The position numbers and the translations under genes were made by a program. Source: Bacillota bacterium (lineage in GTDB: Bacteria; Bacillota; Dethiobacteria; DTU022). From it: DNA of 64,000 nt. The notes beneath the pieces are model-generated. The model was not told where the DNA came from, did not search any database, and saw only the letters and a program-made list of their open reading frames with translations. Positions 25,155 to 54,912 of this stretch are shown here, one piece after another; within the stretch, counting starts at the first letter, position 1; each line of letters opens with the position of its first letter. Location: NCBI GenBank assembly GCA_033549065.1, contig JAWSUE010000007.1, positions 62,001 to 126,000 on the forward strand. The letters run 5' to 3'.

Positions 25155-25326
25155 CGAAAAAATAACAAACCGCGCCTCCCAATCAAGAAAACGCGGCCTA
25201 ATGGCGATTGTCTCCTTTCCGAACACGGGAGGCTAAGGGATTTCTCCCTCAACCCAGGCCTTTTACCATACCCGCATTACGGCTGTAGGTAAAAAGGCTC
25301 GGAGTGGTTTATTTGGTTTTACCAAC
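25155..25326 (-). ncRNA. probable molybdenum cofactor (Moco) riboswitch with terminator
   Basis: The minus-strand leader of the cofactor operon is highly structured. ACTCCGAGCC (25305-25296) can pair with the TTCGGAAAGGAG segment (near 25222-25211). The stretch between holds a GAGGGA-GAAA-TCCCTT hairpin and GCCTCCCGTG, followed by CGCCATTAGGC. These blocks match my memory of the Moco RNA motif. A hairpin CCGCG/CGCGG (25196-25192 with 25174-25170) then runs into a T-rich tract (to 25155), a likely terminator. GGGAGGC in that hairpin (25180-25174) is the exact complement of aptamer GCCTCCC (25233-25227), which would allow switching. Confidence 0.72.
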
Positions 25327-49827: not shown

Positions 49828-50655
49828 ATGAAAGACAATTACAATTTTAATATTCAACATAACAAATCTTATAGATCCAAGGTGCTCGTTTTGTCGATTA
49901 TGATCATACTGGTTGTATTTATAAGTCTGGTTGGCTGTTCTGATCCGGAAAAAATAACACTGAATATATCAGCGGCCACCAGTCTGACCGATGCGATAAA
50001 TGAAGTCAATGTATATTATCTGCAAGAAAACAGCAATTTGGAGTTGTTAACCAACTTTGCTGCTTCAGGTGATCTGCAAACACAAATTGAAAACGGCGCT
50101 CCGGTTGATATTTTTATCTCGGCTTCCCCGATCCAGATGGATAATCTGGAAGCCAAAGATTTGATTTTAAACGACACCCGCCAGGATCTTATAAGTAACA
50201 GGATAGTTCTCATCACCCTGAAGGATAAAAATTTTGACTTTACAGGTTTCGAGAATCTAATGGATGACAAAATAACACTCATTGCCATGGGTGATCCCGA
50301 GTTTGTACCTGCTGGTTATTACGGGCGTCAAGTCTTTGATTTTCTCGATTTGCCCTTTGAAGAGATCCTCCATAAGTTTGTTTTAACCGGTAATGTTAGA
50401 CAGGTTGTCGGTTATGTTGAAAGTGGAAATGTTGATGCAGGGATACTATTTACTTCAGATGTTGTCAATTCTGATCGGGTAAGAATTGTTGCAATAGCGC
50501 CCGATGAGATAAATAATACAATACTTTACCCCGTTGCTATCATAGCTTCAAGTACGAGAACAGAAACTGCCCGGAGTTATGTAGAATTTCTTTTCACTAC
50601 GGTAGCACAGGAAATATTTGAAAAACACGGATTTTTATTAATCCAAAGCCGGTAA
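49828..50655 (+). CDS. modA: molybdate ABC transporter substrate-binding lipoprotein
   Basis: ModA captures molybdate or tungstate outside the cell, 275 residues. A membrane signal (VLVLSIMIILVVFISLVG then Cys) indicates a lipoprotein, after an unusually long 18-residue polar start. ISAATSLTDAINEV, NFAASGDLQTQIENGAPVDI and GNVDAGILFTSDVV are family motifs for oxyanion binding. It lies at the head of modABC. Confidence 0.94.
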   Translation: MKDNYNFNIQHNKSYRSKVLVLSIMIILVVFISLVGCSDPEKITLNISAATSLTDAINEVNVYYLQENSNLELLTNFAASGDLQTQIENGAPVDIFISASPIQMDNLEAKDLILNDTRQDLISNRIVLITLKDKNFDFTGFENLMDDKITLIAMGDPEFVPAGYYGRQVFDFLDLPFEEILHKFVLTGNVRQVVGYVESGNVDAGILFTSDVVNSDRVRIVAIAPDEINNTILYPVAIIASSTRTETARSYVEFLFTTVAQEIFEKHGFLLIQSR

Positions 50656-50682
50656 TACGGATTTTACTGGAAAGGCTGAAAA

Positions 50683-51378
50683 ATGTTCGAAACATTCTAT
50701 TCTCCTCTATATGTTTCCCTGAAAACAGTTTTGGTATCTACATTGATCACCTTTTCCCTCGGAATTGGCGCCGCACACTGGATGGCCAATTATTCCGGTA
50801 AGTTAAAAAGCTTGATCGATGGTCTATTTCTGCTTCCCCTTGTTTTACCTCCCACGGTTGTTGGATTCGGTCTTCTATTTCTATTTGGTAATAACGGTCC
50901 GTTGGGAAAACTATTTAATTTAATTGGAATTAATGTTGTATTTTCATGGCCGGCAACTGTGATTACAGCTGTTATCGTCTCGTTTCCCTTGATGTATATG
51001 TCTGCCCGTGGTGGGTTTGAACAGGTTGATATAAATATTGAAAATGCTGCCCGTACTTTGGGTGCAAGTGAATGGCGGATATTCTGGACAGTAACACTGC
51101 CTCTTTCCTGGCCTTCGGTGATGGCTGCAACTGTTCTGGCTTTTGCCCGTGCCCTGGGTGAGTTCGGTGCAACATTGATGCTGGCCGGAAATATTCCCGG
51201 CAGAACGACGACTATACCGGTTGCCATCTACTTTAAAATACAATCTGGCCGGATGGACGAGGCCCTTATTTTAACCTTAATAGTCCTGGCCTTTGCATTC
51301 ATATCGCTGGTTTTACTTGCCTACTGGAAAGGGAAAGCCAGGAATAACGGAAGGAGTAAGGCTCTTGCTGGAAATTAA
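50683..51378 (+). CDS. modB: molybdate ABC transporter permease
   Basis: The 231-residue membrane subunit, with LPLVLPPTVVGFGLLFLFG and the coupling loop AARTLGASEWRIFWTVTLPL, then ARALGEFGATLMLAGNIPGR, all typical of ModB. It overlaps modC by 14 bases. Confidence 0.95.
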   Translation: MFETFYSPLYVSLKTVLVSTLITFSLGIGAAHWMANYSGKLKSLIDGLFLLPLVLPPTVVGFGLLFLFGNNGPLGKLFNLIGINVVFSWPATVITAVIVSFPLMYMSARGGFEQVDINIENAARTLGASEWRIFWTVTLPLSWPSVMAATVLAFARALGEFGATLMLAGNIPGRTTTIPVAIYFKIQSGRMDEALILTLIVLAFAFISLVLLAYWKGKARNNGRSKALAGN

Positions 51379-52450
51379 GGTAAAAAGAAATTTAACTGAT
51401 TTCAATCTTGACGTCGAAATCAATGTAGACAAGGAAATCCTATCGATACTGGGACCTTCCGGATCAGGCAAGACTATGACACTTATGTGTATAGCCGGAT
51501 TACTCCACCCTGATGAAGGATTGATAAGGCTGAATGGTAAAGTCCTTTTTGACTCTAAGAAGGGGATATTTATGCCGCCTCAAAAAAGAAAAATCGGCTT
51601 TGTATTTCAGAACTATGCGCTTTTTCCTCACCTAACTGTTGCTGAGAATATAGCCTATGGTATACACGATAAACCGAAGAAATTTGCAAATGACAGGATT
51701 AAGGAACTGCTTGAAATTATTCATATACCAGGACTAATAAATCGATATCCCAATGAACTTTCATCAGGTCAACAGCAAAGGGTTGCCCTGGCGAGGGCTA
51801 TTGCCCCTGAACCGGAAGTTCTGTTACTCGACGAACCTTTCTCTGCACTTGATACATTCCGTCGCGAACGGCTTGAATATGAGCTGCTCAACCTCTACCA
51901 GTATTTCGAGGGTGATATCCTTTTTGTCACACATGATCTGGACCAGGGTTTTAAACTTGGGAATCGAATTGCCATTTTTGAAAATGGACGGGTCATTCAG
52001 TGCGAAGCAAAAGAAGAGGTTATTGCCAACCCGGAAAACATTACAGCTGCAAAAATGCTTGGAGTAAAGAATTTGCTGAGCGGCAGGATTACAGAGATAG
52101 ACGAGGGAGGAGTATCTGTTTTAATACCGGAGTTCGGAATGAAATTAAAAGCTGTCGGAACGATATCTGAAAAACTTTCCCCAGACCAGCCGGTCCTGGT
52201 CGGAATTAGGCCGGAACATATTGAACTAAAAGATTTTCCGGGAATTAACACTTTGTCCTGTATATCGGAACAGGTCCTGGACGGGGTAACCAACTTCCAC
52301 AGCTTTTATTACGCTGTCAACGATGCAGTTAAAAGATACAGGTTGGAAAGATGCTCACCGAGAAGTTCATCAATAGCTGTTCATCCGGAGGGTGAAAACT
52401 ACTGCTATCTTTACTTTCCTCCGGAACGTTTGATTGTCCTGGCTGAATAA
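51365..52450 (+). CDS. modC: molybdate ABC transporter ATP-binding protein
   Basis: A 361-residue ATPase with Walker A GPSGSGKTMTLM, Q-loop FVFQNYALFPHL, signature LSSGQQQRVALARAI, Walker B VLLLDEPFSALD and a C-terminal TOBE-like domain after residue 230 (LLSGRITEIDEGGVSVLIP) that can bind molybdate for feedback control. The TTG at 51365 is chosen because GGAAGGAG lies eight bases upstream; a longer frame from 51293 would translate the modB tail. Confidence 0.95.
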   Translation: MLEIKVKRNLTDFNLDVEINVDKEILSILGPSGSGKTMTLMCIAGLLHPDEGLIRLNGKVLFDSKKGIFMPPQKRKIGFVFQNYALFPHLTVAENIAYGIHDKPKKFANDRIKELLEIIHIPGLINRYPNELSSGQQQRVALARAIAPEPEVLLLDEPFSALDTFRRERLEYELLNLYQYFEGDILFVTHDLDQGFKLGNRIAIFENGRVIQCEAKEEVIANPENITAAKMLGVKNLLSGRITEIDEGGVSVLIPEFGMKLKAVGTISEKLSPDQPVLVGIRPEHIELKDFPGINTLSCISEQVLDGVTNFHSFYYAVNDAVKRYRLERCSPRSSSIAVHPEGENYCYLYFPPERLIVLAE

Positions 52451-52459
52451 TTATCCTGC

Positions 52460-52930
52460 TTATTCAGCCTGCAGGTGATCTAATATTGCCAGGATCTCTT
52501 TGTTTTCCGGAATATCGCTCATTGAATGCCCGTAATGGACATAGCGCAGGATGCCCTTCTTGTCGATAATCATCTGAGCGGGCTGCCTGCCCATTCTGAA
52601 GAGATTGACCTCCTGGCCATAAAGCTTCAATATCTGATGACTTTCATCAGGAATACCGATAAATGGCAGGCTGTTTTTCTTCCAGTATTCTTGAAAGCTT
52701 TCAGCATTTTCAGGTCCTACCGAAATGATAACAGTATCCCTTTCAGCATATTGCTCGTGTTTCCGACGCAGCCGCGCCAGGTGCCGTCGGCAAAACGGTC
52801 AGACAAAACCACGGTTTAATACCAGCAGGATATGATTTTTATCTTTGTAATCGGATAACCTGATGTTATTACCTTTAAAATCTTCCAGGCTAAAATCAGG
52901 AGCAACCATATTTAGTTCAACCTGCGGCAT
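52460..52930 (-). CDS. peroxiredoxin-like selenoprotein (AhpC/TSA fold), UxxC motif
   Basis: A 156-residue redoxin-domain protein read through one in-frame TGA (codon 44, 52801-52799). Before it lie MVAPDFSLEDFKG and LLVLNRGFV; after it PFCRRHLARLRRKHEQYAER, LPFIGIPDESHQILKLYGQE and ILRYVHYGHSMSDIPENKEI. Homologues I recall have RGFWCPFCRRH, so TGA replaces the first Cys of the CxxC pair, giving U44-P-F-C47. Coding similarity continues in frame on both sides, and a bSECIS-like hairpin lies directly downstream. The start ATG follows GGGAGGAAA. It is cytosolic, probably a thiol-dependent peroxide or disulfide reductase. A recent nonsense mutation is the alternative. Confidence 0.85.
52763..52790 (-). 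promoter_or_regulatory. candidate bacterial SECIS hairpin
   Basis: On the minus strand, eight bases after the TGA, CCGACG (52790-52785) pairs with CGTCGG (52768-52763) around a 16-base loop whose ends can also pair (GCA/TGC in the alternative register). The apical part, with a G-rich TGGCGCGG, lies about 20-25 bases after the TGA, the distance expected for recognition by SelB. Confidence 0.65.
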
Positions 52931-52958
52931 GGCACTTTCCTCCCGTATTAATAAATAA

Positions 52959-53105
52959 TCAGAATAGATTGCCTATTCCCAGATTCCAGTAGATCGAACC
53001 CGGAATAATCATTTCATTGATCAGAAAAAAGTTATTGATTGCCTGAAAAACATTCAGTGTACCGGTTCTTCGTACGGCAATAACCGCAACTCCAACTTTC
53101 ACCAT
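52959..53105 (-). pseudogene. truncated iron-sulfur flavoprotein / FMN reductase fragment
   Basis: A 48-residue frame with a strong AGGAGG ribosome site. [20 protein letters not shown] and [20 protein letters not shown] match the central part of NADPH-dependent FMN reductases of the iron-sulfur flavoprotein type, which is normally followed and preceded by about 80-100 more residues. Both ends are missing. It ends 28 bases before the selenoprotein gene. Either a gene remnant or, less likely, a small expressed flavodoxin-like fragment. Confidence 0.65.
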
Positions 53106-53247: not shown

Positions 53248-54912
53248 TCAAGCTTCCAAACGAAAATCTTCTTCATCAGGTATAGAGCGCAGTTTATTTT
53301 TCCAGGTGTTGTAACCGATGATCAAGATGCCGACACCACATAGGAATGTTATTATTCCAATAGCTGCCAGCAGCCACTGGCCAGCTGGGATATATGAATT
53401 GACAATCATCCAGCCCTGTGCTGTCATTGAGGTGATGATCATAATGAAGAATGGGATTATATATGTTTTGGTCGGCCTACCCAGCATTTTAAGAAATACA
53501 GCTGAAGCCAGCAAGGCTAAGCCGGCTAGGATCTGGTTTGTTGCACCAAACAGCGGCCAGAGTATCATTCCATAACCAGAAAAACAGAGAATAGCGACAA
53601 CTACAAAACCAGGTATAATCGAAACAGTTCTGTCAGCAAAAATTTTCGGCATTCCAAAAGTCTGGGAACTTTCAGCGAATGCAATTCTTGTAAAACGCAT
53701 TGCTGAATCAAGTGTGGTCATAGCAAAACTCTTGACTACAACCGCCATAAAAGCTGTCCCGAGAATCAGTGGAAAACCAATTGGTTCAAGGAATGTAGCT
53801 CCACCTCTAGCCCAAACTGTAGTCCAGGCTGCTACACCCCATGCGGAGTACATTTCAGAGTAACCAGCAGCACCCAAACCGACTACAGCGCAGAGCAAGG
53901 CTATCAAACAAAGATAACCCTCACCAACCATTCCGCCGTAACCGACAAATGTAGCATCGGTTTCTTTTTTAATCTGCTTGGGCGTGGTCCCACTGCCAAC
54001 AATTGAGTGCCATCCGGAAGTAGCACCACAAGCTATTGTTATCATTACGAATGGCCAGATTGGAGGTGCACCTGGAGGATTGAGATTTACAGCCGGAGCA
54101 ACTACTTGGCCTCCACCAGTCAGGAAGAGGGCGATCACGCCAACAGAGATTACAGCCAGCATAATTACCAACTGATAAGCGTTGATAAAGTCCCTGGGTT
54201 GAACCAGGAGCCAGACAGGCAACCGAGTAGAAATGATAATATAGCCGAGCAGGATGTATACCCAGGTCCAGTAGTCGAGCTGTAATGGGTAAAGAGTTCC
54301 AACGTAGATCAGAGCATACATAATTACCAGGGCAATTCCGGTTGCAAGGTAGAGGTTTATCTTCCAGTTTTTCCGGATGCTAATGCCAATAATCATAGCC
54401 AGGGGAATTTCAACCCACACAGAATAAACTGCAGCGGGGAAAGCTGCTGCCAGAGTAGCAATTAAATGAACAAAAACCGCAGTGACAAGTACAAGAAGAA
54501 AGAAAACAACTATGTACATTAATGCAACTGCCTTTGTCCCTAAGAGTTCTTTTAAGTAATCAGCTATACCCCGACCATCATGGCGAAGCGATGTGACCAG
54601 TGCTCCTAAGTCATGGACGGCACCGATGAAAATAGTTCCCAGTACCAACCATAGCAGGGCAGGAAGCCAACCCCAAATAGCTGCTACTGAAGCGCCAACA
54701 ATTGGCGCAGCACCGGCAATAGATGTAAAATGATGGCCGAATACGACATATTTATCCGTTGGGACGTATTCGAAGCCATCATCCAATCGCACAGCCGGTG
54801 TTACAGTATTAGGATTTAATTTCCAGATTCTCTTAGATAAAAACGTGGCATAATACTTCATTGCGAGGTAGTAAAGGACCACCGCGAAAATAACAAAGTA
54901 TAATCCGTTCAT
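53248..54912 (-). CDS. cstA: carbon starvation protein CstA, pyruvate/peptide transporter family
   Basis: A 554-residue membrane protein with about 14 helices. CstA motifs are YVPTDKYVVFGHHFTSIAGA, PIVGASVAAIWGWLPALLW and GSGTTPKQIKKETDATFVGY, with TLDSAMRFTRIAF further on. Members carry pyruvate or act in peptide uptake during carbon limitation. The ATG follows AGGAGGA. A long leader with a palindrome lies upstream. Confidence 0.95.
   Translation of the reverse strand: MNGLYFVIFAVVLYYLAMKYYATFLSKRIWKLNPNTVTPAVRLDDGFEYVPTDKYVVFGHHFTSIAGAAPIVGASVAAIWGWLPALLWLVLGTIFIGAVHDLGALVTSLRHDGRGIADYLKELLGTKAVALMYIVVFFLLVLVTAVFVHLIATLAAAFPAAVYSVWVEIPLAMIIGISIRKNWKINLYLATGIALVIMYALIYVGTLYPLQLDYWTWVYILLGYIIISTRLPVWLLVQPRDFINAYQLVIMLAVISVGVIALFLTGGGQVVAPAVNLNPPGAPPIWPFVMITIACGATSGWHSIVGSGTTPKQIKKETDATFVGYGGMVGEGYLCLIALLCAVVGLGAAGYSEMYSAWGVAAWTTVWARGGATFLEPIGFPLILGTAFMAVVVKSFAMTTLDSAMRFTRIAFAESSQTFGMPKIFADRTVSIIPGFVVVAILCFSGYGMILWPLFGATNQILAGLALLASAVFLKMLGRPTKTYIIPFFIMIITSMTAQGWMIVNSYIPAGQWLLAAIGIITFLCGVGILIIGYNTWKNKLRSIPDEEDFRLEA

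Follow-up and report, generated by a model that had tools for sequence, protein, structure and literature searches.

A predicted peroxiredoxin-like UxxC selenoprotein with a covarying bSECIS-type hairpin in a Bacillota genome

Among thioredoxin (Trx)-fold proteins, a CxxC motif with a cis-proline marks the thiol-disulfide type, and a PxxxTxxC motif with an arginine marks the peroxiredoxin (Prx) type. ResA is a membrane-anchored protein that faces outside. Selenoproteins of the Prx-like UxxC kind, which carry the AhpC-TSA domain PF00578, form a predicted family that is already established (PMC13188914 Table 1; PMC1794560; PMC1088965), published under the name "Prx-like thiol:disulfide oxidoreductase" (PMC13188914) with WP_010940744.1 listed as the representative (PMC13188914 Table 1). 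For the Prx-like 1 group of the GOS data, 225 homologues with selenocysteine (Sec) were reported versus 2,740 with Cys (PMC2398784). The rule for a bacterial SECIS element (bSECIS) calls for a loop of 3 to 9 nt with G in the first two loop positions, a stem of 4 to 16 bp, a distance of 16 to 37 nt from the UGA, and a minimum free energy of -7.5 kcal/mol or lower (PMC13188914).

Here we analyzed a gene in a 64,000-nucleotide stretch of a Bacillota genome (the window) that resembles these selenoproteins. We propose, with a probability of roughly 95%, that it encodes a selenoprotein in which the TGA at 52801-52799 is read as Sec44.

Reading frame, TGA conservation and selenocysteine machinery

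Minus-strand positions 52930 to 52460 form one frame with a lone TGA at 52801-52799, reading MPQVELNMVAPDFSLEDFKG...NRGFVUPFCRRHLARLRRKH...LQAE. The gene (52460-52930, minus strand) ends in TAA and would yield a 156-aa protein (MPQVELNMVAPDF...NRGFVUPFCRRHL...LQAE); a putative Shine-Dalgarno-like sequence, GGGAGGAAA, lies upstream of its ATG (52937-52945, minus strand). With C written for U, the protein matched Pfam AhpC-TSA (PF00578) at residues 9-131 (E = 8.3e-23; 81.1 bits against a cut-off of 26), with U44 inside the match, and it also matched Pfam Redoxin. The in-frame TGA thus aligns with a functional Cys, the first of the CxxC motif (UPFC here), and is flanked by homology on both sides, just as the first-pass annotation had read the frame. 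That annotation had also predicted that standard gene callers would miss the gene. A mechanical list of open reading frames contains no minus-strand frame of at least 60 aa at 52460-52930 but does contain a 97-aa antisense frame (52526-52819, plus strand), which bears out this prediction: standard annotation would lose the selenoprotein gene and put an antisense frame in its place.

The TGA was present in all eight of the best matches outside the source genome among 100 relatives, all from the same order and 49 to 67% identical. A TGY codon misread as TGA is not expected here, as independent assemblies of relatives have TGA as well. A scan of genome contigs recovered 76 related loci, 74 of them readable at codon 44, and this codon was TGA in 72 of the 74, far more often than chance would give. 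TGA loci span Bacillota, Thermodesulfobacteriota, Spirochaetota, Chloroflexota, KSB1 and Latescibacterota; the two exceptions, from Anaerolineae and 41 to 42% identical, carry Cys (L122, with TGC, and L123). One seed motif of the scan, GR[QM]PAQM, is blind to codon 44, and in the other, LV[LF]NRG[FL][VA]C, the Cys was back-translated to TGY, so the scan favors Cys, if anything. Seedless searches at the protein level gave a similar picture. Across 398 genomes of the same phylum, every match of at least 125 bits had an in-frame TGA, and the sole match without one was 31% identical; across 400 genomes of Chloroflexota, 47 matches exceeded 130 bits, 46 of them with an in-frame TGA, and in the 16 for which the codon position was read directly, the TGA stood at the UxxC position in every case. 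A third phylum search, centered on Desulfuromonas, took in four genomes only and carries little weight. The U44-x-x-C47 pair is invariant in the aligned relatives. A tree places the two Cys relatives on an outer branch that is long and has full support, indicating no Sec-to-Cys change within the sampled subfamily. Substitutions 3' of the TGA are mostly synonymous in five relatives (pN of 0.19 to 0.23 versus pS of 0.63 to 0.85), and the downstream part is therefore translated and under selection.

The source genome (2.39 Mb, 97.8% complete) encodes the set expected for a bacterial selenoprotein, with selA, selB and selD side by side on contig C14 (591.6, 383.9 and 381.3 bits, respectively) and tRNA-Sec, or selC, with anticodon tca on contig C12, so that all four sel genes named by the first-pass annotation as a check are present. 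The selD gene itself has one in-frame TGA at the usual site, reading SSAGU. Among 48 TGA-bearing genomes tested, selA scored above its curated cut-off in 47 and was represented by a fragment in the remaining one. TGA otherwise acts as an ordinary stop, ending 6 of the 33 long open frames of the window.

Several related loci showed features of their own. The TGA is retained with the motif variants UAFC in an Acidaminobacter metagenome-assembled genome (L088) and URHC in a Chloroflexota genome (L150). Two copies may be broken: L134 has a TAG inside the hairpin region, and L116 (Anaeromonas frigoriresistens) has a frameshift ahead of the TGA. Two class-level relatives, L029 (genome G077) and L030 (G081), each have two adjacent Prx-like genes with an in-frame TGA in each gene (UASC and ULLC in L029), and these pairs are likely tandem selenoproteins. 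L043 (G049) is thioredoxin-like with an N-terminal signal- or lipoprotein-like segment and the motif STGUPAC, likely a further selenoprotein of the TlpA/ResA type. The genome of the Cys locus L122 (G148) also carries another TGA-containing relative, and its selA lies in two overlapping pieces (C6:30365-31518), either a broken gene or an assembly error.

A conserved hairpin downstream of the TGA

A hairpin at 52780-52763 on the minus strand (CTGGCGC-GGCT-GCGTCGG) has a 7-bp stem and a 4-nt apical loop (52773-52770) that starts after 25 nt from the UGA. With its loop GGCU and an energy of -10.7 kcal/mol, it fits the bSECIS rule. Across 66 aligned sequences, its positions pair in 85.9% of cells, and four pairs changed on both sides, with 56 such cells versus 16 in shuffles. 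Covariation was 0.330 versus 0.204 in shuffled alignments and was reached in 0 of 500 shuffles, counts that are not to be read as probabilities because related sequences are not independent. A control in which the partner was slid also favored the true register. Conservation does not extend to the outermost pair (columns 22-39), which leaves a conserved stem of 6 bp. The AU/UA pairs of GAUGC/GCAUC switch jointly to GC in GGCGC/GCGCC, with Met-His in the protein becoming Ala-Arg. Synonymous codon choice is nearly frozen across 71 family members, with CAG in 70, TTG in 69, and, for Cys47, the partner Cys in UPFC (52790-52792, minus strand), TGC in all 71 and never TGT.

Relative to synonymous shuffles, the hairpin was more stable than expected (mean z of -2.15; control stretches taken from these genes averaged -0.08), and the hairpin of the present gene, folded in 24 nt, reached a z of -3.8. 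Over the 57 nt from the UGA, folding energy did not stand out from dinucleotide shuffles (z of -0.10); an energy signal is seen only when the short hairpin is compared with its synonymous shuffles, and the evidence otherwise comes from covariation. A search of the window with Rfam returned no SECIS-type family at the gene. The loop, stem and spacing rules fit 70 of 71 family members and all 16 Chloroflexota genes inspected, each of which has a hairpin with an AGUU loop. The present gene is the one member with the loop GGCU at the 25-nt spacing, where almost all relatives have AGUU, because its codon 53 reads CGG and not CAG.

The first-pass annotation had placed the SECIS element elsewhere, in a perfect 6-bp stem beginning 8 nt after the TGA (CCGACG...CGTCGG; arms at 52790-52785 and 52768-52763, minus strand). 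This stem exists in the window, and its role as the SECIS is very unlikely: in the 66 sequences it pairs in 37.6% of cells, its covariation was matched in 40 of 500 shuffles and is unconvincing, its 16-nt loop falls outside the 3- to 9-nt range unless inner pairs are added, and the minimum-energy fold contains the covarying 52780-52763 hairpin instead. Two other readings would deny selenocysteine altogether. If the TGA were a true stop or a pseudogene mutation, the frame beyond it would be a decaying remnant, and TGA does end some frames of the window in the ordinary way. This reading has next to no probability given the same TGA in dozens of genomes of several phyla, the strong purifying selection 3' of it, the conserved hairpin, and the invariance of Cys47 and the cis-Pro region after it. 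Equally improbable is a TGA misread or reassigned to Trp or Gly, which would account for the open frame and nothing beyond: other genes of the window are terminated by TGA, the Sec machinery is present in the source genome and selA in nearly all host genomes tested, and the position is that of the catalytic CxxC Cys, occupied by Cys in L122 and L123. The proposal of a likely selenoprotein made in the first-pass annotation is instead supported by the machinery, the retention of the TGA across phyla, the selection past it, and the covarying bSECIS-type hairpin.

We infer how Sec may be inserted in the cell, and the catalytic order, substrate and reductant, as follows. The 52780-52763 hairpin would recruit SelB carrying Sec-tRNA(UCA), which would decode the UGA as Sec44; the product would be a Prx-like oxidoreductase, small and cytoplasmic, with a thioredoxin fold. 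Sec44 would be the low-pKa attacking residue, Cys47 would close a selenenylsulfide with it, Pro117 would stand in for the Trx-type cis-proline, and thioredoxin or a similar reductant would recycle the enzyme.

Active site, gene neighborhood and predicted role

The AlphaFold model of the protein (mean pLDDT of 89.5, pTM of 0.87) had Bcp1 (3drn) as its best PDB match (TM of 0.83), and AhpE and ResA were also matched. When the protein was aligned by profile to 3drn and 2ywn, U44 took the place of the Prx Thr and P117 that of the Prx Arg; Cys47 aligned with the peroxidatic Cys of 2ywn, and R40, four residues before U44, occupied the Pro position of PxxxTxxC. The PxxxTxxC motif and conserved Arg of canonical peroxiredoxins are thus absent from the protein in these alignments. 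Invariant residues include N39, R40, U44, P45, C47, H50, G114, R115, P117, A118 and Q119. With UxxC and a Pro in place of PxxxTxxC...R, the protein is Prx-like and not a canonical peroxiredoxin, and the lack of the Prx catalytic signature makes direct peroxidase activity uncertain. The earlier label "peroxiredoxin-like" therefore holds for the AhpC/TSA domain and fold, and for the best sequence matches to Bcp/AhpE peroxiredoxins, but not for the catalytic signature; judged from its motifs, the better name is Prx-like UxxC thiol/selenol oxidoreductase.

Upstream of the gene lies cstA (53248-54912, minus strand), and a molybdate-type ABC transporter (solute-binding SBP_bac_11, permease and ATPase; 49828-52450, plus strand) converges on it. 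Just upstream, at 52962-53105 (minus strand), a 48-codon frame with a good Shine-Dalgarno sequence ends in TGA; it had no Pfam match and by eye resembles a fragment of a flavoprotein/FMN reductase. Elsewhere in the window, a molybdenum/tungsten cofactor riboswitch (Rfam RF01055, 65.7 bits) occurs at 25196-25316 (minus strand). No neighbor was common to most loci, the commonest being an OhrR-like regulator (about nine loci) and a TM1586-type nitroreductase (six loci). An OhrR-type MarR regulator carrying the LENQxCF cysteine immediately precedes the gene, in the same orientation, at six loci (L056, L058, L059, L069, L091 and L099); at three others (L094, L101 and L116) it is located farther upstream, in a stretch that also contains a nitroreductase-like gene. 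These loci come from several Tissierellales/Clostridia and one genome labelled Neobacillus. The regulator's best match was the NCBIfam OhrR model, at 169 bits and thus below the cut-off of 200. The OhrR neighbor is absent from the window locus, so the link to the organic hydroperoxide response is drawn from relatives and would extend to the present gene only indirectly.

Judging from the OhrR-like regulators that precede the gene in relatives, the family may have a role linked to hydroperoxides. We lean slightly toward a role, inferred by homology, in reducing (organic) hydroperoxides, or the thiols they oxidised, in anaerobes. It is also quite possible that the selenoprotein is only a general thiol:disulfide (protein) oxidoreductase of the ResA/TlpA type with no peroxide-linked role, as would fit the UxxC motif combined with a Pro where Trx has its cis-Pro, the missing Prx residues Pro, Thr and Arg, the ResA structures among the fold matches, and the published family name (PMC13188914). 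Against this reading stand the Bcp/AhpE peroxiredoxins as best sequence and structure matches, the OhrR-type peroxide sensors ahead of the gene in several relatives, and the absence of an apparent signal peptide in the protein sequence.

Comparison with known families

The protein is an additional member of the already known Prx-like UxxC selenoprotein type, in a subfamily that is unusual in being almost purely Sec. We give even odds to the reading that this subfamily is a distinct, widespread, almost obligately selenocysteine-containing Prx-like branch over several phyla, in which the SECIS nucleotides are constrained tightly enough to dictate the protein sequence around the active site, which alternates between Met-Met-Gln-Leu-His and Met-Ala-Gln-Leu-Arg as the stem pairs change between AU and GC. 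If so, Cys replacement would be selected against, and the branch could serve to ask why Sec cannot give way to Cys in certain enzymes. The subfamily also offers clean natural data on how SECIS and protein constrain each other, and Soehngenia longivitae, Clostridium algidicarnis and Acidaminobacter hydrogenoformans are cultivable hosts for work on Sec insertion and function.

Our literature search found no paper with the UPFC motif and none tying selenocysteine, peroxiredoxin and OhrR together. The subfamily may already be counted under the "distant Prx-like" protein of Syntrophomonas wolfei or under WP_010940744.1; neither Geobacter nor S. wolfei is among the 76 loci of the contig scan. No NCBIfam model accepts the protein, leaving the subfamily without a dedicated model. 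Its best match, NF040769 (SelL-related redox protein), scored 72.9 bits over residues 9-105 against a curated cut-off of 120, and only part of the 173-position model was matched.

The Prx-like thiol:disulfide oxidoreductase selenoproteins (UxxC/UxxU) are close in kind: they too have a PF00578 domain in which Sec takes the first CxxC position, have a bSECIS shortly after it, and occur in anaerobic Clostridia and Deltaproteobacteria. In contrast to GOS Prx-like 1, which is mostly Cys (PMC2398784), the present subfamily is nearly all Sec. Bcp/PrxQ and AhpE (3drn, 2ywn and 1xxu) have the same fold (TM of 0.83 to 0.85 for 3drn and 1xxu) and are the best sequence matches, whereas their PxxxTxxC...Arg is replaced here by RxxxUxxC...Pro. 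ResA/TlpA proteins share the CxxC-type redox pair and the Pro at the cis-Pro position, but they are less similar overall, and the present protein has no apparent N-terminal anchor.
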